From assembly GCA_009694375.1 (NCBI GenBank), contig SHVB01000001.1:258366-322365 (forward strand): a DNA stretch of 64,000 nt, read 5' to 3'. The notes beneath the pieces are model-generated. The model worked only from the letters and a program-made list of their open reading frames with translations, had not been told where the DNA came from and ran no database searches. The translations under genes were made by a program, and so were the position numbers. The DNA is from Acidimicrobiia bacterium. Its GTDB lineage: Bacteria; Actinomycetota; Acidimicrobiia; Acidimicrobiales; VFJN01. Positions 2,843 through 27,886 of this stretch are shown here, one piece after another; position 1 is the stretch's first letter, and every line of letters starts with the position of its first letter.

Positions 2843-2986
2843 GGGTTCCCTTCCAGATCGGAGTCAGGGGTGGGTAAGATCCGGGCGCGTTGTTGGGGGT
2901 CCAGGCACTGTTCAGGATGCCAGTATCCGCACGCTCGTGGCGACATTCGCCCACGAACAGCGCCAAACAGTGAGAACGGAAGCAGA

Positions 2987-4864
2987 GTGGAGCGAGAACA
3001 CGCTACGCCCGGGGGGGACGATCAAACAGCGGGCGAGGCACGTTCGGTCGCGCCCAGGAGGGGCTACGAGGCCCTGATTGAGTACCGATTCGCCTGGCTG
3101 GCGGGGTGGGACTCACTGAGTTGGGCGATGGCGATGTGGTTAGCGATCTGGGTGCGCTACGACTTCAATGTTGGCCGCATCGGCACCGCTGGGGTGTGGT
3201 TGGCCATCGCCCTGACCGTGTCGATCCAGGTAGTCGTAGGGCTCTGGCAGGGGCTCTACATGGGTCGGTGGCGCCTGGGTTCTTTCGAGGAGATCGAGGC
3301 CCTCCTGAAAACGGTTCTGCTGGCGGTCGGTGCCCTCCTGCTCGTCGATATTCCCACCCGTTGGGTGCCTATCAGCGTGCCCGTGGCAGCCGTGTTCATC
3401 GCGCTGGTGGCCATGGCTGCCGTGCGTTACGGATGGCGCGTGCTGATCGATCGTGGTCGGCGGCCCAGCGGCATCGGAGCGGCGAGGGTCCTCGTGTTCG
3501 GGGCCGGCGAGGGGGCCGATCAGGTCATCACCGCCATGCTGCGAGACCCCTCGAGCCCCTATCTGCCGGTGGGGATTCTCGACGACGACCCCCGCAAGTC
3601 GCAGTTGCGAATCCGGTCGGTGCGTGTGCGCGGTACCAAAGTCGACCTCGCCACCGTGGCCGCCGATCTCCGGGCCGACGTGTTGCTCATCGCCATCCCC
3701 TCCGCCAGCGGTCCGCTCGTACGGGAACTGGCCGCCCTTGGTACCGCCGCCGGGTTGCGGGTGATGGCGGTGCCCGCCATGAACAGCCGCTTCGACGACA
3801 ACATCGGCGTGGAGGACATTCGTCCCCTCACCACCACCGACCTTTTGGGCCGACGAGAGATCGACACCGACATCGACGGCATTGCCAAGTACCTCACTGG
3901 ACGCCGCGTGCTCGTCACCGGTGCCGGCGGGTCCATCGGGTCGGAGCTCTGCCGCCAGGTACACCGCTTCGGGCCATCGGCACTGGTGATGCTCGACCGT
4001 GACGAGAGTGGCTTGCATGCCGTGCAGATGTCGATCGACGGTCGGGCCCTGCTCGACAGTCGCGACCTCGTCGTGGCCGACATCCGTGACGCCGAACGCA
4101 TGGCCGAAGTGTTCCAGGAACACCGCCCCGAGGTGGTGTTCCACGCGGCGGCCCTCAAGCACCTGCCGCTGTGCGAAATGCACCCCAGCGAGGCGGTGAA
4201 GACCAACGTGTGGGGTACCTCCACCCTGCTGGACCTCGCCATGCATCACGACGTGGACACGTTCGTGAACATCTCTACCGACAAGGCCTGCGATCCCGTC
4301 AGCGTGCTGGGCGCCACCAAGCGCGTGGCGGAGCGCCTCACCGCCGCCGCCGCCGGAACCGCACGCGGCGATTACATCTCGGTGCGCTTCGGGAACGTAC
4401 TCGGCAGCCGTGGTTCAGTGCTCGGCGCCTTCCGAGCCCAGATCGCCATGGGGGGTCCGATCACCGTCACCGATCCTGAGGTGACCCGGTATTTCATGAC
4501 GGTGGAAGAAGCCGTGCAACTCGTGATCCAGGCCGGGGCCATCGGCGAGCAGGGCGGGGCGATGGTGCTCGACATGGGCGAACCCGTGCGGATTGTGGAC
4601 GTGGCGCAACGCCTAATCGCCGAAGCCGACCGTCGGATCGAGATCGTCTACACCGGTCTCCGCCCGGGCGAGAAACTCCACGAGGTCCTCGAGGGGATCC
4701 AGGAACATCCCCGGCCCTCGGCCCATCCGCTCATCGCCATCGTGAAGGTTCCTCCCCTAGCCGCCACCGCCGTGGTGGGCCTGACCTCCTCGAGTAGCGA
4801 GGTGCTCCTCAAGGATCTCCTCCGAAACATGGATCAACCCCCTGTGACCGCCCCCCAGGATTGA
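2987..4864 (+). CDS. Membrane-bound nucleotide-sugar 4,6-dehydratase (PglF/CapD/WbpM type)
   Basis: About 625 residues. Four hydrophobic segments (about residues 45-150) precede a first Rossmann-like domain (about 165-290), followed by a CapD-type catalytic SDR domain starting at VLVTGAGGSIGSELCRQ near residue 308. TDKA (431-434) and GATK (442-445) are the active-site signature. As in FlaA1/PglF enzymes the SDR tyrosine is absent; leucine 441 sits there. The start chosen is GTG 2987 with GGAAG just upstream; a longer in-frame start at 2870 lacks a ribosome site. It would convert UDP-GlcNAc to the 4-keto-6-deoxy sugar used by the divergent aminotransferase. Confidence 0.9.
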   Translation: MEREHATPGGDDQTAGEARSVAPRRGYEALIEYRFAWLAGWDSLSWAMAMWLAIWVRYDFNVGRIGTAGVWLAIALTVSIQVVVGLWQGLYMGRWRLGSFEEIEALLKTVLLAVGALLLVDIPTRWVPISVPVAAVFIALVAMAAVRYGWRVLIDRGRRPSGIGAARVLVFGAGEGADQVITAMLRDPSSPYLPVGILDDDPRKSQLRIRSVRVRGTKVDLATVAADLRADVLLIAIPSASGPLVRELAALGTAAGLRVMAVPAMNSRFDDNIGVEDIRPLTTTDLLGRREIDTDIDGIAKYLTGRRVLVTGAGGSIGSELCRQVHRFGPSALVMLDRDESGLHAVQMSIDGRALLDSRDLVVADIRDAERMAEVFQEHRPEVVFHAAALKHLPLCEMHPSEAVKTNVWGTSTLLDLAMHHDVDTFVNISTDKACDPVSVLGATKRVAERLTAAAAGTARGDYISVRFGNVLGSRGSVLGAFRAQIAMGGPITVTDPEVTRYFMTVEEAVQLVIQAGAIGEQGGAMVLDMGEPVRIVDVAQRLIAEADRRIEIVYTGLRPGEKLHEVLEGIQEHPRPSAHPLIAIVKVPPLAATAVVGLTSSSSEVLLKDLLRNMDQPPVTAPQD

Positions 4865-4876
4865 TCCCGAGCGGGA

Positions 4877-5497
4877 TCAACGGATCGGCCGCGCCGGTAC
4901 GCCCACCACCGTGGCCCCCGGGGCCACATCCGCTAGCACCACCGCTCCCGCACCCACCACGGCCGCCTCGCCCACTCGCACGCCCGGCAGGATATGGGCG
5001 CCGGTGCCGATAGACACCCCGCTCTCCAGATGGACCGCACCGCTCACCGTCGCCCCGGGCAACACCGTGACGTAGTCCTCCAGGATCGCATCGTGGCCCA
5101 GCGTGGCGTTGGGCCCCAGGTAGCCGTGGCGACCAATGGTGATGTGGGTGGTGAGACGCGCCCCGGCACAAAGCACCGTGCCCACACCTAACTCCACCTC
5201 GCTGCCAGTGGAGGCCAACGGGTGCACCAGCGCCGGGGACCAAAGCAGGGCGCGGTGGGCATCGAGGGTGTCGCCCACCCGGCGGCGGGTGGCGCTCTCC
5301 CCAATCCCCAGAAGCACCAACGCGTCGAGTTCCGCGAGGAAACCCACGTTGCCGAGTACCGACACACCGCGACGCCGCAGTGGTTCGAGGTCGGGGGAGC
5401 CGTCATCCACAAAGCCCAAACACGAGCCACCGCACGCCTCCACCACGTCGAAGACCTCGCGCCCATGTCCGCCTGCCCCCACGATCACAATGCTCAT
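4877..5497 (-). CDS. PglD-family sugar O/N-acetyltransferase
   Basis: A 206-residue protein with an N-terminal nucleotide-sugar binding Rossmann-like part (MSIVIVGAGGHGREV) and a C-terminal left-handed beta-helix made of hexapeptide repeats. His135 in LGHDAIL matches the catalytic base of PglD. PglD acetylates the 4-amino group of UDP-4-amino-trideoxy sugar with acetyl-CoA. The ATG at 5497 overlaps the stop of the upstream sugar transferase (ATGA), so the two are coupled. With the PglF- and PglE-like genes it completes the UDP-diNAc-bacillosamine branch. NeuD-like sialic acid O-acetyltransferase is an alternative reading of the same family. Confidence 0.9.
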   Translation of the reverse strand: MSIVIVGAGGHGREVFDVVEACGGSCLGFVDDGSPDLEPLRRRGVSVLGNVGFLAELDALVLLGIGESATRRRVGDTLDAHRALLWSPALVHPLASTGSEVELGVGTVLCAGARLTTHITIGRHGYLGPNATLGHDAILEDYVTVLPGATVSGAVHLESGVSIGTGAHILPGVRVGEAAVVGAGAVVLADVAPGATVVGVPARPIR

Positions 5498-6075
5498 GAA
5501 CCGCTCCCCTGGAAAGGTGCCATGGTGGTCGAACCCTCCCCGCTGATGCCCTCCCGGCGAAGGACCGCCCCCACCGTACGGGCGATGATGGCCAGATCCA
5601 GGGCAAAGGAGCGGGTCTCGACATACTGCACGTCGAGTTCGAATCGGTCCTCCCACGCCACCAAGTTGCGCCCTTGGACCTGAGCCAAGCCCGTGAGGCC
5701 GGGGCGAAGGTCGTGACGACGGGCCTGCCGGGGGGAGTACCGCTCCAGATATTCCATCAGGAGCGGGCGGGGCCCCACCAGGCTCATGTCGCCACGCAAC
5801 ACATTCCACAGTTCCGGCAACTCATCGAGACTGCTGGAGCGCAACAAGCGCCCCACCCGCGTGAGGCGCTCTGCATCCTCCCCCGGGCCAGAGCGCATCG
5901 TGCGGAACTTCATGATGGTGAACGGGGTTCCGTGCCGCCCCGGCCGACGCTGCCGGAACAACACCGGGGAACCCGTGGTGACCCGCACCGCTGCCGCGAT
6001 AATCGCCATCGGTACCGCCACCACCAACAACGCCAACCCGGAGCCAACCACATCGAACAGGCGCTTCACCCGCAT
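5494..6075 (-). CDS. Initiating phosphosugar transferase (PglC/WcaJ-type small bacterial sugar transferase)
   Basis: A 193-residue monotopic membrane transferase. One N-terminal hydrophobic helix follows MRVKRLFDVVGSG, then the family motifs KFRTM, LDELPELWNVLRGDMSLVGPRP and DLRPGLTGLAQVQG. The family moves a sugar-1-phosphate from a UDP-sugar to undecaprenyl phosphate, starting lipid-linked glycan assembly. The length matches the minimal PglC form without the extra transmembrane domain of WbaP. Its ATG overlaps the upstream deacetylase stop (TGATG) and its stop overlaps the PglD start, so the three genes form one coupled unit. UDP-diNAcBac is the likely donor by context; this is not shown. 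Confidence 0.92.
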   Translation of the reverse strand: MRVKRLFDVVGSGLALLVVAVPMAIIAAAVRVTTGSPVLFRQRRPGRHGTPFTIMKFRTMRSGPGEDAERLTRVGRLLRSSSLDELPELWNVLRGDMSLVGPRPLLMEYLERYSPRQARRHDLRPGLTGLAQVQGRNLVAWEDRFELDVQYVETRSFALDLAIIARTVGAVLRREGISGEGSTTMAPFQGSGS

Positions 6076-6899
6076 CAGGAACCGGCCTGGGCGTAACGGC
6101 GGCGATTGACCAACTGACGGGCGGAGTCTTCGAGTCGCATGCCGCCGCTGGCCTTGCGCCGGAACCAGCGCAGACCGTCGGCCACCTGGATCGGGGTGCG
6201 GTGCAGTCGGTACCGGTCGCCATCGCTGGGGTTGGCCCGACTCCCCGCCACGGCCGCTGACCGAAAGCGCGCCCGCACCTCCGCCTCCGCCGCCGGCGAT
6301 CCCAGTAGGGCCTTGGGATAGGCAAAGTGGGTGCACGTCACCCCGAGGCGCTCACCGATCAGGTCAATAGAGCGGTCGAGTTCTCCCGCCGCGCTCGGCC
6401 CGTCGACCCGATCCAACAGGGCGTGGGTATGCGTGTGGGAGCCGATGGTGGCGAGGCCCGATGCCACGAGTTCCTGCAGGCCGTCCCAAGAGATGGGAGC
6501 ACCCTCCCCGGGGAAGGGACGGCGGGCCTCAATGAAATCGGTGGCCACGTAGAACGTGGCCGGCGCCCGGTGGCGAGCCAGTACCGGAAGGGCCTCGCTC
6601 ACCCAGTCCGTGGTGCCGTCATCAAAGGTGAGGACGACGGGTTGATCCGCCACAGTCCCTGCCTCCAGACGGGCGATGCCCTCGTCGAGAGTGACGAGTC
6701 GGCCCGAGGCCGCCAACTCCCCCACCTGCGCGTCGAACCCCGCGGTGGTGAGATCCACCGCCGAGGCGGTGTGCCCTCCGACGCGGTGGTAGATGAGGAT
6801 GACCAGGCCGGGGGCGCTTGGTCGCAGCGCGTCGGCACCGGCAGCGGCCACCTTCACCGCCGCACCGATCCCCTGCTTGGCCATCTCCCGGGCTCCCAC
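6075..6899 (-). CDS. Polysaccharide deacetylase (NodB homology domain)
   Basis: A 274-residue protein with a NodB-type fold: LIYHRVGG, then VVLTFDDGTTDWV with the metal-binding Asp pair, then IGSHTHTHALL with the metal-binding histidines. The family removes N- or O-acetyl groups from glycans using a divalent metal. No clear signal peptide is visible; the N-terminus is only mildly hydrophobic, so the cell location is unclear. It is the first gene of a coupled trio with the sugar transferase and acetyltransferase and lies 21 bases after the glycosyltransferase at 6921-8036. It could trim a lipid-linked glycan or the mature polymer. Confidence 0.88.
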   Translation of the reverse strand: MGAREMAKQGIGAAVKVAAAGADALRPSAPGLVILIYHRVGGHTASAVDLTTAGFDAQVGELAASGRLVTLDEGIARLEAGTVADQPVVLTFDDGTTDWVSEALPVLARHRAPATFYVATDFIEARRPFPGEGAPISWDGLQELVASGLATIGSHTHTHALLDRVDGPSAAGELDRSIDLIGERLGVTCTHFAYPKALLGSPAAEAEVRARFRSAAVAGSRANPSDGDRYRLHRTPIQVADGLRWFRRKASGGMRLEDSARQLVNRRRYAQAGS

Positions 6900-6920
6900 G
6901 GTGGCGATGCTACGACCGGC

Positions 6921-8036
6921 TCAGGGGGTGAGGAGGCCGGCGTAGCGAGCCTCCACGATTCGGGCGGTCCGAGCGATGTCGAAGTGCTCCACCCGATGCC
7001 GAGCGGCGGCCGCCAATCGGGCCCGATCGGGGGCCGATCGGGCGAGGCGAAGGTAGGCCATGGCCAGCGCGGCGGGGTCGCCCGGGGGAACCAGGAGGCC
7101 ATCCACCTCGTTGGTCACCACCTCCATGTTCCCGCCCACCCGGGTCACTACCGGGGGCACCCCCAAGGCCATGGCCTCCAGCAGGCTGATGGGGAGGCCC
7201 TCATGGCGAGAACTCAAGGTGAAGACATCTGCCCCCACCACCACCGCCGCCGGATCGGCTTGGTAGCCGAGCATCACCACCCGCTCACCCAGGTTGTAGG
7301 CCAACAGGCCGGCGCGCAGTTCGGCCTCCAGCGGACCCTGCCCTACCGACACGAACCGAAGACGCTCCTCCTCAGCGCACGCCTGGGCCGCGGCGGCGAA
7401 CAGCGTGGGGTAGTCCTTGTTGGCCCGCAGGTTGGCCACGATGGCCACCACGATGTGATCGTCTTTCCAACCCTGTCGAGCGCGGGCGGCGGCGCGTTCG
7501 ACGCGCCGCGCCACCAAGGGTGCCAAGGGCACACCGTGGACCAGCACTTCGGTCTTGGCCCGCCACGGCGACCACTCCGAGGCCACCACCTCGCGCGATA
7601 CGGCCCAGCGCACCCGATCCAGCGGCAGTGTCAGCGCGTTCGCCGTGCGGGTAACCACTCCGTGGGATCCCCAGAGGTTGTGTTCGGTAGACACCAACAC
7701 CGGTCGGGCGCGTTGCGCCCGCAACACCGGCCGGGCCACCGCCGCCACCGCCGGGGAATGGAAATGGACCACGTCGAAGCCACGGGCCAAGGCCCGCAAC
7801 CGCCCCGGCCAACGACGGTCCGACATACCTTCTCGGCCGGCCAGCCGATGGCACCTCACGTCGAGCGCTTCGAGTTCGGGGACCAGGTGCTGCTTGCGCT
7901 CCAGCAGGTACGCCACCTCGTAGTGCACCGCGGCGGGGTTGGCCACCGCCGCCAGTGACACCACCAGGCGCTCCGCCCCCCCGGGACCAAGACCCTTGAT
8001 CACGTGAAGGACGCGCACGGCACGGGACGTATCCAC
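6921..8036 (-). CDS. Glycosyltransferase family 4
   Basis: A 371-residue GT-B glycosyltransferase. The N-terminus reads RVLHVIKGLGPGGAERLV, the acceptor-side loop of GT4 enzymes, and the C-terminal nucleotide-sugar half carries SSRHEGLPISLLEAMALGVP with the EX7E-type motif. The start is set at GTG 8036; the open frame continues upstream to 8108 but that would overlap the divergent glycosyltransferase beginning at 8080. A 43-base gap therefore holds both promoters. It should add one sugar to the lipid-linked glycan on the cytoplasmic side. Donor and linkage are not predictable. Confidence 0.9.
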   Translation of the reverse strand: MDTSRAVRVLHVIKGLGPGGAERLVVSLAAVANPAAVHYEVAYLLERKQHLVPELEALDVRCHRLAGREGMSDRRWPGRLRALARGFDVVHFHSPAVAAVARPVLRAQRARPVLVSTEHNLWGSHGVVTRTANALTLPLDRVRWAVSREVVASEWSPWRAKTEVLVHGVPLAPLVARRVERAAARARQGWKDDHIVVAIVANLRANKDYPTLFAAAAQACAEEERLRFVSVGQGPLEAELRAGLLAYNLGERVVMLGYQADPAAVVVGADVFTLSSRHEGLPISLLEAMALGVPPVVTRVGGNMEVVTNEVDGLLVPPGDPAALAMAYLRLARSAPDRARLAAAARHRVEHFDIARTARIVEARYAGLLTP

Positions 8037-8079
8037 GACGGAACCGTACCCGCCCCACCCGTGCCAGGATTGCCGGATC

Positions 8080-9207
8080 GTGTCCCGCAAGATCGCCCAC
8101 CTCACCACCGTTGACCTGTCGTTGCGCTACCTGCTGTTGGCACAGATCGACGGAAGCCTCGCGGCCGGGGACGAAGTGCTCGGCATCAGTGCCCGCGGCC
8201 CCGACGTGGCGTTCCTCGAAGAACGCGGGATGCGCTTCGTCGAACTCACGGGCTCCACCCGCGCCATGAGCCTCCGCCAGGACCTGCGGGCGGCCCGATC
8301 GCTCTGGCGCATCCTGCGCCACGAACGCCCCGACGTGCTCCACACCCATACTCCCAAGCCGGGTCTGTACGGCCGCCTCGTGGGGCGCCTCGCCGGAGTG
8401 CCCCGTGTGGTGCACACCACCCACGGCCTCTACGCCGCTCCCGACGACCGGCTTCCCAAACGGCTACTCGTCTACACCCTCGAGGCCATCGCCAGCCGCT
8501 TCAGCCATGTGGAGCTGGTCCAGAACCCCGAAGACCTGGAATTGATGGGTCGTTGGCATATCGCCTCGCGCCGGAAACTTCGGCTCCTGGGCAACGGTGT
8601 AGACCTCGACCGGTTCCAGCCCGCCGAGGAGGCCCAACGGCAGGCCGAACGCGCCGCGCTCGGCCTCCAGCCCCACGATGTGGTGGTGGGCCTCGTGACG
8701 CGCCTGGTGGCCGAGAAGGGCATCGAAGAGTTGGTCAACGCGATAGCCATCGTGGGACCGCCGTTTCGTCTCCTGCTGGTGGGGCCCCACGAGCCCGACA
8801 AATCCGATGCCCTCGCCCCCGCTGTCCTCGAGCGGGCCGCCGCGAACGGCGCGATCCTCACCGGTCACCGGCCCGATGTGGAGCGGCTCTACGCGGCCAT
8901 GGATCTCTTCTGCCTCCCGTCGCATCGCGAAGGGTTCCCGCGAGCCGCCATGGAAGCCGCCGCCAGCGGCCTGCCGGTGGTGGCCACCAACATTCGCGGC
9001 TGCCGCCAGGTGGTGGACCCCGGGGTGACCGGAACCCTGGTACCCGTGCGAAATGCCGGTGCCCTCGCCGACGCGCTGCGTCTCTGCGCCGCCGAGCCGG
9101 CCCGGCGCACGCTCGGCATCGCGGGCCGGGCCAAAGCCGTCACCGACTTCGACGAAGCGACCGTGGTCGCCCGCGTGTTGGCCGCCTATGACTCCTCGGC
9201 GGATTGA
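8080..9207 (+). CDS. Glycosyltransferase family 4 (PglA/WcaA-like)
   Basis: A 375-residue GT4 enzyme starting with GTG. HTHTPKPGLYGRL in the N-half and LPSHREGFPRAAMEAAASGLPVV in the C-half are standard for transferases that extend undecaprenyl-diphosphate-linked sugars, including the PglA-like group acting after PglC. It is divergent from the GT4 at 6921-8036. Its 3' end overlaps the converging membrane protein gene by 22 bases. Assignment to the GT4 family is firm; the acceptor is inferred from the PglC-like neighbour. Confidence 0.9.
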   Translation: MSRKIAHLTTVDLSLRYLLLAQIDGSLAAGDEVLGISARGPDVAFLEERGMRFVELTGSTRAMSLRQDLRAARSLWRILRHERPDVLHTHTPKPGLYGRLVGRLAGVPRVVHTTHGLYAAPDDRLPKRLLVYTLEAIASRFSHVELVQNPEDLELMGRWHIASRRKLRLLGNGVDLDRFQPAEEAQRQAERAALGLQPHDVVVGLVTRLVAEKGIEELVNAIAIVGPPFRLLLVGPHEPDKSDALAPAVLERAAANGAILTGHRPDVERLYAAMDLFCLPSHREGFPRAAMEAAASGLPVVATNIRGCRQVVDPGVTGTLVPVRNAGALADALRLCAAEPARRTLGIAGRAKAVTDFDEATVVARVLAAYDSSAD

Positions 9208-25790: not shown

Positions 25791-26774
25791 TCAGTTCTGG
25801 TTGGCGCCGCCGAAGATCTCCGAGACGGAATTGTCTTCGAATACCGCATCGATCGCCTCGGCCAGGATCTTGGCCACCGACAGCACCTCGATCTTGTCGA
25901 TCTGCTTTTCCGGACCCAGGGGCAAGGTGTTGGTGACGATCACCTTGCTGATCACAGAGTTCTTGAACCGGTCGATGGCTGGGCCCGACAGCACTCCGTG
26001 GGTGGCGAGTGCGTAAATATCGGAGGCACCCCGTTCCCGGAGTTGGTCGGCGGCCGCGCAGATGGTGCCGCCGGTGTCGATCATGTCGTCGATGATCACG
26101 CAGGTACGGCCTTGGACGTCGCCCACGATCTCCACGGCCTCCACGCTGTTCTTCACGCCCTTCACCCGGCGCTTGTGCACGATGGCCAGATCAGCCTGCA
26201 GTTGATTGGTGTACCGCTCCGCCACCTTCACCCGGCCGGCATCAGGCGACACGACGACGAGATCGGCGTGGAGGTTGGTCTTGATGTAGTCAACGAGGAC
26301 GGGCATGGCGGTGAGGTGGTCCACGGGGCCGTCAAAAAAGCCTTGGATCTGCCCGGAGTGCAGGTCCACCGACATCAGCCGGTTGGCCCCCGCCGAGGCA
26401 AATAAGTTGGCCACCAACTTGGCGGTGATCGGCTCACGACCCTCGGCCTTGCGATCCTGGCGGGCATAGCCGTAGTTGGGGATCACGGCGGTGATGCGCT
26501 TGGCCGAGGCGCGCCGGGCGGCGTCGATCATGATCAATTGCTCCATGATCACATCATTGACGGAAAGGTCCTCGGTGGAGCCGTGCGTCTGGATGATGAA
26601 CACATCGGCGCCGCGCACGTTTTCCCCGAGCTTTGCGTGGATCTCGCCATTGGAGAACTCCACCAAGTTGGGATGGCCGAGTTCCACGCCCAACTGGGCC
26701 GCAATCTCGTTGGCCAAGGGCAAGTTCGACCGGCCCGACAGTAGGTGCAGCCTCTTCTTGGTAATCAGCTCCAT
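25791..26774 (-). CDS. prs: Ribose-phosphate pyrophosphokinase
   Basis: A 327-residue class I PRPP synthase, making PRPP from ribose 5-phosphate and ATP for nucleotide, His and Trp synthesis. Seen: LLSGRSNLPLANEIA, FSNGEI, YARQDRKAEGREPITAK (flexible and ATP loop), VSPDAGRVKVAERY, and the PRPP loop VIIDDMIDTGGTI. ATG 26774 has AAGGAA just upstream; an in-frame extension overlaps glmU and is not supported. It lies eight bases after the glmU stop, the usual glmU-prs pair. Confidence 0.97.
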   Translation of the reverse strand: MELITKKRLHLLSGRSNLPLANEIAAQLGVELGHPNLVEFSNGEIHAKLGENVRGADVFIIQTHGSTEDLSVNDVIMEQLIMIDAARRASAKRITAVIPNYGYARQDRKAEGREPITAKLVANLFASAGANRLMSVDLHSGQIQGFFDGPVDHLTAMPVLVDYIKTNLHADLVVVSPDAGRVKVAERYTNQLQADLAIVHKRRVKGVKNSVEAVEIVGDVQGRTCVIIDDMIDTGGTICAAADQLRERGASDIYALATHGVLSGPAIDRFKNSVISKVIVTNTLPLGPEKQIDKIEVLSVAKILAEAIDAVFEDNSVSEIFGGANQN

Positions 26775-26782
26775 GGGTTCCT

Positions 26783-27886
26783 TTAGTGCGTGGCGATGTT
26801 GGGAGTGTAGAACGCCCCGGTGTGGGTACCTGGCGCAATTTCGGCCCCCGGTTCCAGCACGGCGTAGGGACCGACCACGCAATCAGCGCCGATGGTGCTG
26901 TGACGGGCAACGGTATGCTTGAGGGTGGTGTGTTCGCCCACCGTGCAGTCCACCAGCCGACATCCCGGGCCAATCTCGACACCCCGTCCAATGGTGGTGA
27001 GACCTTGGAGGATCGTGCCGGGGAACAACGTGACGTCGGCGGCGAGCACCACGGTGGTGTCGATGTAGGTAGCGGAGGGGTCCACCATGGTGACGCCCTT
27101 GGCCAGCCAGGCGGCGTTGATGCGACGGCGGAGCCCGGCTTCGGCATGGGCGAGTTGGGCACGGTCGTTGATGCCATGGGTCTCGTCGGGATCGCCCGCC
27201 ATGAGCGTGACCACTCGATGGCCCGCGTCGGTGAGTACCTCCACCACATCGGTGAGGTAGTACTCGCCCTGACTGTTGTTGGGGTGCACCAGCCGCAGGG
27301 CAGGGGCCAGCAGACTGCGCCGGAAACAGAAGATCCCCGTGTTGATCTCGCGGATCTCAAGTTGCTCAGCAGTGGCGTCTCGGTGCTCCACGATCCTCGC
27401 CACGCGCTCGTCCTTACCCACCCGCACGATGCGGCCGTACCCGGTGGGATCTTTGAGATGGGCGGTGAGCATCGTGCAGGCCGCCCCGGATGCACGATGC
27501 TCGGCCACGAGGGTGTCGATGGTGGCGGGACGCAGAAGGGGGGTGTCGCCGGGCAGCACCAGCACATCGAGATCGTCGTCGAGATCGTCGTCGGGCAGAC
27601 CGGTGAGGCCCACGGACACCGCGTCGCCGGTGCCCAGCTGGCGGGTTTGCTCCACGAATTCGAGCCGGAGGCCAGCACTGTCCTCGGTGAGTTTCTTGGT
27701 CACTCGCTCGGCCTCATGGCCCACCACCACCACGGCCCGACCGATCTCGGCGGCGGGGAGGGCATCGAGGACGTAGAGCACCATCGCCCGGCCACAGAGC
27801 AGATGCAGCGGCTTCGGACGGGTGGATCGCATGCGCGATCCCTCGCCAGCAGCCAGTACGACAGCGGATAGGTGGCGTTCACTCAC
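26783..27886 (-). CDS. glmU: GlmU-type N-acetylglucosamine-1-phosphate uridylyltransferase with truncated acetyltransferase domain
   Basis: A 367-residue protein against about 450-490 for normal GlmU. The N-terminal pyrophosphorylase domain is intact: VVLAAGEGSRMRSTRPKPLHLLCG, QLGTGDAV, LPGDTPLL, GEYYLTDVVE. It should form UDP-GlcNAc from GlcNAc-1-P and UTP. The C-terminal beta-helix stops early at GAFYTPNIATH: the family RPGA arginine is a Glu here (LEPGAEIAPGT) and the later catalytic His, Lys and Asn positions are missing altogether. GlcN-1-P acetylation therefore probably comes from elsewhere. The start is GTG 27886. Directly followed by prs. Confidence 0.9.
   Translation of the reverse strand: MSERHLSAVVLAAGEGSRMRSTRPKPLHLLCGRAMVLYVLDALPAAEIGRAVVVVGHEAERVTKKLTEDSAGLRLEFVEQTRQLGTGDAVSVGLTGLPDDDLDDDLDVLVLPGDTPLLRPATIDTLVAEHRASGAACTMLTAHLKDPTGYGRIVRVGKDERVARIVEHRDATAEQLEIREINTGIFCFRRSLLAPALRLVHPNNSQGEYYLTDVVEVLTDAGHRVVTLMAGDPDETHGINDRAQLAHAEAGLRRRINAAWLAKGVTMVDPSATYIDTTVVLAADVTLFPGTILQGLTTIGRGVEIGPGCRLVDCTVGEHTTLKHTVARHSTIGADCVVGPYAVLEPGAEIAPGTHTGAFYTPNIATH

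Follow-up and report, generated by a model that had tools for sequence, protein, structure and literature searches.

The GlmU protein encoded in the window, the whole stretch of 64,000 nucleotides analysed here, ends inside its left-handed beta-helix and lacks the acetyltransferase active site. Bacterial GlmU is usually presented as a bifunctional enzyme that makes UDP-GlcNAc. One of its activities is missing in the entire order to which the window organism belongs, in part of a separate family, f60, and in members of the Actinomycetaceae, and an uncharacterised GNAT protein family, termed C, is the probable replacement. There is good reason to think that C acetylates glucosamine phosphate and has thereby freed GlmU of its second domain.

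The short glmU gene is located at positions 26783–27886 on the minus strand and encodes 367 amino acids, with a GTG start and a TAA stop (26783–26785). The uridylyltransferase domain (residues ∼1–232; 27191–27886, minus strand) is complete. It keeps the motifs LAAGEGSRM, QLGTG, PGDTPLL, GYGRI, EINTG, EYYLTD and GIND, and the motifs of Mycobacterium tuberculosis GlmU align throughout this region. The residual N-terminal part of the beta-helix comprises residues ∼263–367 (26786–27100, minus strand) and ends before the acetyltransferase active site. At the Arg of the RPGA motif, the translation and GlmU alignment display Glu345 (codon at 26852–26854, minus strand). The gene directly downstream, prs, encodes ribose-phosphate diphosphokinase (25791–26774, minus strand) and starts at the ATG of MELITKK (26772–26774). 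The gap between the glmU stop and the prs start is exactly 8 bp (26775–26782, minus strand), which leaves no room for a frameshifted remainder of the lost half. A sequence-only reading of this DNA had described the early stop, the absent active-site region, the Arg to Glu change, the eight-base spacing and the intact uridylyltransferase half, and each is borne out by the profile and structure alignments or by the sequence itself.

The uridylyltransferase domain and first beta-helix coils align well with the bifunctional GlmU model TIGR01173, but the alignment breaks off near position 344 of the model's 452, and the score of 360.3 bits is 6.5 bits short of the model cut-off of 366.85. One short GlmU of the same order (G017) is just above this cut-off, at 368.2 bits. 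Alignments to M. tuberculosis GlmU structures stop at chain residues 359–361 (chains of 391 and 495 residues), and that to E. coli GlmU (1hv9) stops at residue 348 of 456. The window protein is a predicted uridylyltransferase (GlcNAc-1-P + UTP → UDP-GlcNAc) with a beta-helix stump, which is possibly kept for trimer assembly.

A second GlmU, which would have overturned the sequence-only reading, was not found when the genome (2.58 Mb in 36 contigs, 96.4% complete) was searched with the window protein. The other matches are all weak: two are to the nucleotidyltransferase part, one of them reaching the helix, and two are short matches to the helix part. TIGR01173 gives four matches in total. In four other genomes of the order (G183, G167, G227 and G265), none of the TIGR01173 matches listed covers the lost half. 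A search of a plasmid collection (100 records, all below 60% identity) was uninformative.

The short form is shared by close relatives. Three genomes of the same genus encode proteins 99, 93 and 78% identical that match over essentially the whole short GlmU. A search of 60 genomes, consisting of the window genome and 59 relatives, gives a match at E ≤ 1e-40 in 49 and none in 11; of the 54 families that it samples in the order, 43 have the short GlmU. TIGR01173 was also run against 246 genomes drawn from across the class, 87 of them inside the order and 159 outside it. A full GlmU is present in none of the 87; with classes drawn by E-value and absence taken as E > 1e-40, 69 have a short or partial GlmU and 18 are without GlmU. 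The best E-values in the order are never below 3e-110. Among the matches listed, GlmU ends at position 330–347 of 452, with the exception of fragments at contig ends and one genome, G012. Outside the order, the acetyltransferase half is present in 141 genomes (137 over the cut-off and four in which the gene is fragmented or runs off a contig), uridylyltransferase alone is found in seven, and 11 are undetermined.

To compare end points and the RPGA motif, 37 loci of the order were taken, of which 34 GlmU could be read to the stop, and 44 full-length loci, of which 42 were aligned. All 34 short proteins terminate no more than ∼30 residues beyond RPGA, and many have TG(A/P)FYT there; this common end region suggests one ancestral truncation in the order. 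The Arg of RPGA is present in 42 of 42 full-length proteins and in none of the 34 short ones, where the position is occupied by Glu (15 proteins), Ala (five), Gln (four), Pro (four), Asp (two) and, once each, Thr, Ser, Val and His. At two loci, G012:C1:1283677-1284786 and G167:C105:20106-21128, the GlmU profile match crosses an in-frame TAG, in the former to position 362; judging from the sequence, a vestige of the helix perhaps persists beyond the stop.

Family C was found in a survey of GNAT proteins, in which PF00583 matches at 61 places in five genomes of the order (G000, the window genome, and G037, G110, G017 and G040) were compared by BLAST. The families present in all five include a PAT-like family termed A2, an MshD-like family termed B, which is presumably MshD, a RimI-like family (weak in G017) and C. 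Members of C are ∼143 amino acids in length and display the signature PQLS...IPTGxRAWIEDVVVD...RGxGVG...VDLTSRPSREAANRLY...TNVYR. A search of the same 246 class genomes, with E < 1e-34 defining a strong match, finds C in 84 of the order's 87 genomes, including 67 of the 69 with a short or partial GlmU. The three without a clear C are G167, G183 and G227, the last with a weak match only, and these absences are perhaps assembly gaps. The genomes without GlmU (for example G039, G040, G059 and G095) carry C in 17 of 18 cases, and GlmM is present in them where checked. A search of the GlmU-less genomes for the eukaryote-type UDP-GlcNAc pyrophosphorylase (PF01704) is void, as the profile matched none of 14 control genomes.

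Outside the order, strong C matches are limited to 11 of 159 genomes, seven from family f60 and four from a single genus (g116) of family f71. C is thus present in seven of seven genomes with uridylyltransferase alone, in four of 141 with the acetyltransferase half and in none of the 11 undetermined; a Fisher test of the co-occurrence of C and truncated GlmU gives p = 5.5e-56, a rough value that ignores relatedness. The seven C-bearing f60 genomes, from five genera, have a GlmU that matches the profile only to position 239–244 of 452, with open reading frames that end just past the uridylyltransferase. Where f60 genomes retain the acetyltransferase half, strong C is absent. In the four f71 genomes, C and a full GlmU are found together.

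A scan of named public genomes, from which 80 of 559 confirmed loci were kept, places C mainly in Acidimicrobiales and also in Actinomycetaceae. None of the 18 C-bearing genomes tested for GlmU, out of these 80, exceeds the GlmU cut-off, and in seven of seven Actinomycetaceae tested GlmU is truncated, the match extending to position 313–332. In a sample of the phylum (149 genomes), strong C is found in ten genomes of the order and in one other, G377, which also has a full GlmU. Family f87 of the same phylum (G299, G324, G392 and G410) has a GlmU that extends to position 334–355 of 452 and no strong C (best E 5e-12). Another solution must therefore exist there, probably a further acetyltransferase, to judge from these matches.

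Phylogenetic trees of C (115 and 58 rows, 147 columns), in which deep support is poor, place the Actinomycetaceae sequences as one clade (bootstrap 99–100) among those of the order. Sequences of f60 are found in two places: genus g158 is separate and the other f60 genera join f71. These placements suggest that C has spread horizontally and that GlmU has been truncated repeatedly. The GlmU end points differ by lineage, being inside the helix in the order, before the whole of the helix in part of f60, and at different stops in the Actinomycetaceae; as there are three different end points, at least three truncation events are indicated. It is hypothesized that C, as a separate small GNAT, acetylates glucosamine phosphate from acetyl-CoA, that its presence would have made the acetyltransferase half of GlmU dispensable and led to its loss, and that C would have moved between lineages, with the half lost at least three times, in the window's order, in part of f60 and in the Actinomycetaceae.

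C matches Pfam PF00583, and a structure model (from L254, with a 38-row alignment) has a predicted GNAT fold with a mean pLDDT of 97. Foldseek searches with the model retrieve GNATs at E-values down to 1.5e-8, with a Trypanosoma brucei acetyltransferase (3fb3) at rank 2 and Cryptosporidium parvum GNA1 (6yug) at rank 50, and VIA-align gives many GNATs at Z 17–18 with no preference. In a comparison of the C profile with solved structures, the best match is 1z4e from Bacillus halodurans, whose substrate is unknown, and the second is 3fb3 at 4e-10. The GNA1 proteins of Caenorhabditis elegans, human and Arabidopsis match at 1e-6 to 7e-6, and 3fb3 and several GNA1 are among the best 18. Structure 3fb3, along with 3i3g, is termed an acetyltransferase in the database and is taken here to be T. 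brucei GNA1. GNA1 enzymes (EC 2.3.1.4) act on GlcN-6-P. C is comparable in length to the eukaryotic GNA1 enzymes, that of T. brucei among them, is likewise a GNAT and has a strand, IEDVVVD, like one in 3fb3; it differs in being bacterial, its substrate is a predicted one, and several other GNATs are as close to C as GNA1 is. Both by fold and by sequence, GNA1 is matched in rank by NAA30 and by acetyltransferases of polyamines and aminoglycosides. As Foldseek and VIA-align rank GNA1 and other GNATs alike, the fold does not fix the substrate of C. Among curated NCBIfam families, none matches C above its cut-off.

The independent change of a GNAT family into a GlcN-6-P acetyltransferase has a precedent in apicomplexan GNA1. 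This enzyme is described as an independent origin of this activity within the GNATs (PMC5838249) and as a family confined to the Apicomplexa (PMC5838249, PMC7587441), and Tyr127, Thr117, Arg113, Arg73, His81 and Arg141 are given as important residues of the C. parvum enzyme (PMC7587441). In the profile alignment, Tyr127, Thr117 and Arg141 fall on an invariant Tyr, Thr and Arg of C, but Arg73 and Arg113 face no Arg. NAA30 shares the Tyr and the terminal Arg, so the match of residues is suggestive only. In place of the terminal Arg, the G166 protein of C has Thr and the f71 proteins have Glu. By sequence the Glu might reflect another function of C in f71; as G166, which has a uridylyltransferase-only GlmU, carries Thr at this position, nothing is built upon the f71 Glu.

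The sequence-only reading stated that GlcN-1-P must be acetylated by another enzyme. That another enzyme acetylates glucosamine phosphate in the window organism is well supported by the sequence comparisons, namely by the order-wide short form, the search for a second GlmU and the presence of a candidate in C; GlcN-1-P is one of two candidate substrates. The acceptor could be GlcN-6-P, in a GNA1-like route followed by a mutase, or GlcN-1-P, in a direct replacement of the GlmU activity. We lean slightly towards GlcN-6-P, because C resembles GNA1. All 60 genomes of the order that were searched contain GlmM, whose loop GGEQSGH has the usual form in 43 of 43 rows read (from 48 loci, with some genes represented twice). 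The unchanged loop gives no sign of a switch of GlmM to GlcNAc-6-P and would suit GlcN-1-P. A fuller scenario, in which a bacterial GNA1-like GNAT moved horizontally, the GlmU half was shed at least three times, and the peptidoglycan precursors of the order are made via a eukaryote-like separate GNAT, a mutase and a uridylyltransferase, appears about evenly balanced between right and wrong.

Other explanations are to be weighed against a role of C in acetylating glucosamine phosphate. The substrate left open by the fold, and the presence of C beside a full GlmU in f71 and G377, would agree with C performing some other common acetylation while glucosamine phosphate is the substrate of a different enzyme, for example the PAT-like A2, conserved in all five genomes in which GNATs were compared, or some hexapeptide enzyme that has escaped recognition. 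This is considered unlikely, given that C accompanies a uridylyltransferase-only GlmU in the separate family f60 and a truncated one in the Actinomycetaceae, and that A2 resembles enzymes of the phosphinothricin/YncA type; C was profiled over the 246 genomes, and A2 and the other conserved GNATs of the order were compared in the five. One hexapeptide protein in the window (4877–5506) was considered as a remainder of GlmU and rejected, as its sequence and surroundings look like those of a PglD/NeuD-type enzyme, by our naming, in a polysaccharide locus. That cells dispense with de novo acetylation and use imported or recycled GlcNAc is quite improbable. The genomes without a recognisable GlmU are at most indirectly in keeping with it; the short GlmU is spread over most of the families sampled, and GlmM is universal among the 60 genomes, with a GlmS homologue adjoining glmM in the window genome, genes that would be pointless without acetylation.

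This GlmS is itself expanded, to 1152 amino acids with a C-terminal stretch of ∼320 extra residues, and could be imagined to hold the acetyltransferase in its additional regions. A Pfam search of the protein found no acetyltransferase domain, and members of the order with a short GlmU (G009, G028 and G037) have an ordinary GlmS of 608–621 amino acids, on which ground the candidate was rejected and the explanation is held highly improbable. A sequencing error or assembly artefact, the other circumstance by which the sequence-only reading could have failed, has a negligible probability: evidence for it was not found, and the same GlmU end region recurs in independent genomes of the genus and in the 34 proteins of the order.

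The expanded glmS is located outside the window, after glmM (L105:10003-13461, on G000:C6), and has an insertion in the glutaminase part as well as the C-terminal extension, which matches no Pfam family. Among 18 glmM neighbourhoods, GlmS has 1133–1200 amino acids in seven, is split into two open reading frames in an eighth and is ordinary in three. No obvious acetyltransferase was seen near glmM in these 18 genomes, 11 of which were read gene by gene, except for a RimI-like protein beside tsaD.

M. tuberculosis GlmU has been pursued as a drug target. If the proposed role of C is correct, many uncultured actinobacteria would depend on C as an essential enzyme and would be beyond the reach of inhibitors that target the GlmU acetyltransferase. 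A report of this replacement was not found in the literature searched on GlmU truncation, on GNA1 and GNAT enzymes and on Acidimicrobi- and Actinomycetaceae, a search that lay mostly outside subscription journals.

The C gene of the window genome is also located outside the window (G000:C2:173390-173812, minus strand), with a PAC2-like gene close by, an arrangement shared with G037 and other loci. Its product keeps PQLSS, VEDVIVD, VDLTSRPGREAANHLY and TNLYR; the acetyl-CoA loop has ANQGIG where the family signature has RGxGVG, and the branch is long, at 1.6–1.8 changes per site. This copy may be fast-evolving, or the genome may depend on something else, and it is the main local weakness of the proposal.

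Hexosamine genes were not found beside C. At the C loci (L242-L321), a NUDIX-like gene, as named from reading the sequences, often comes before C (48 of 78), a GlnD-like gene of ∼765 amino acids precedes it in 45 of 78, and a PAC2-like gene is nearby. Within the window, the PglD/NeuD-like hexapeptide acyltransferase is part of a polysaccharide locus (2870–8108) that, with names again from reading, also encodes a CapD/PglF-like epimerase-dehydratase, a sugar transferase and a glycosyltransferase.
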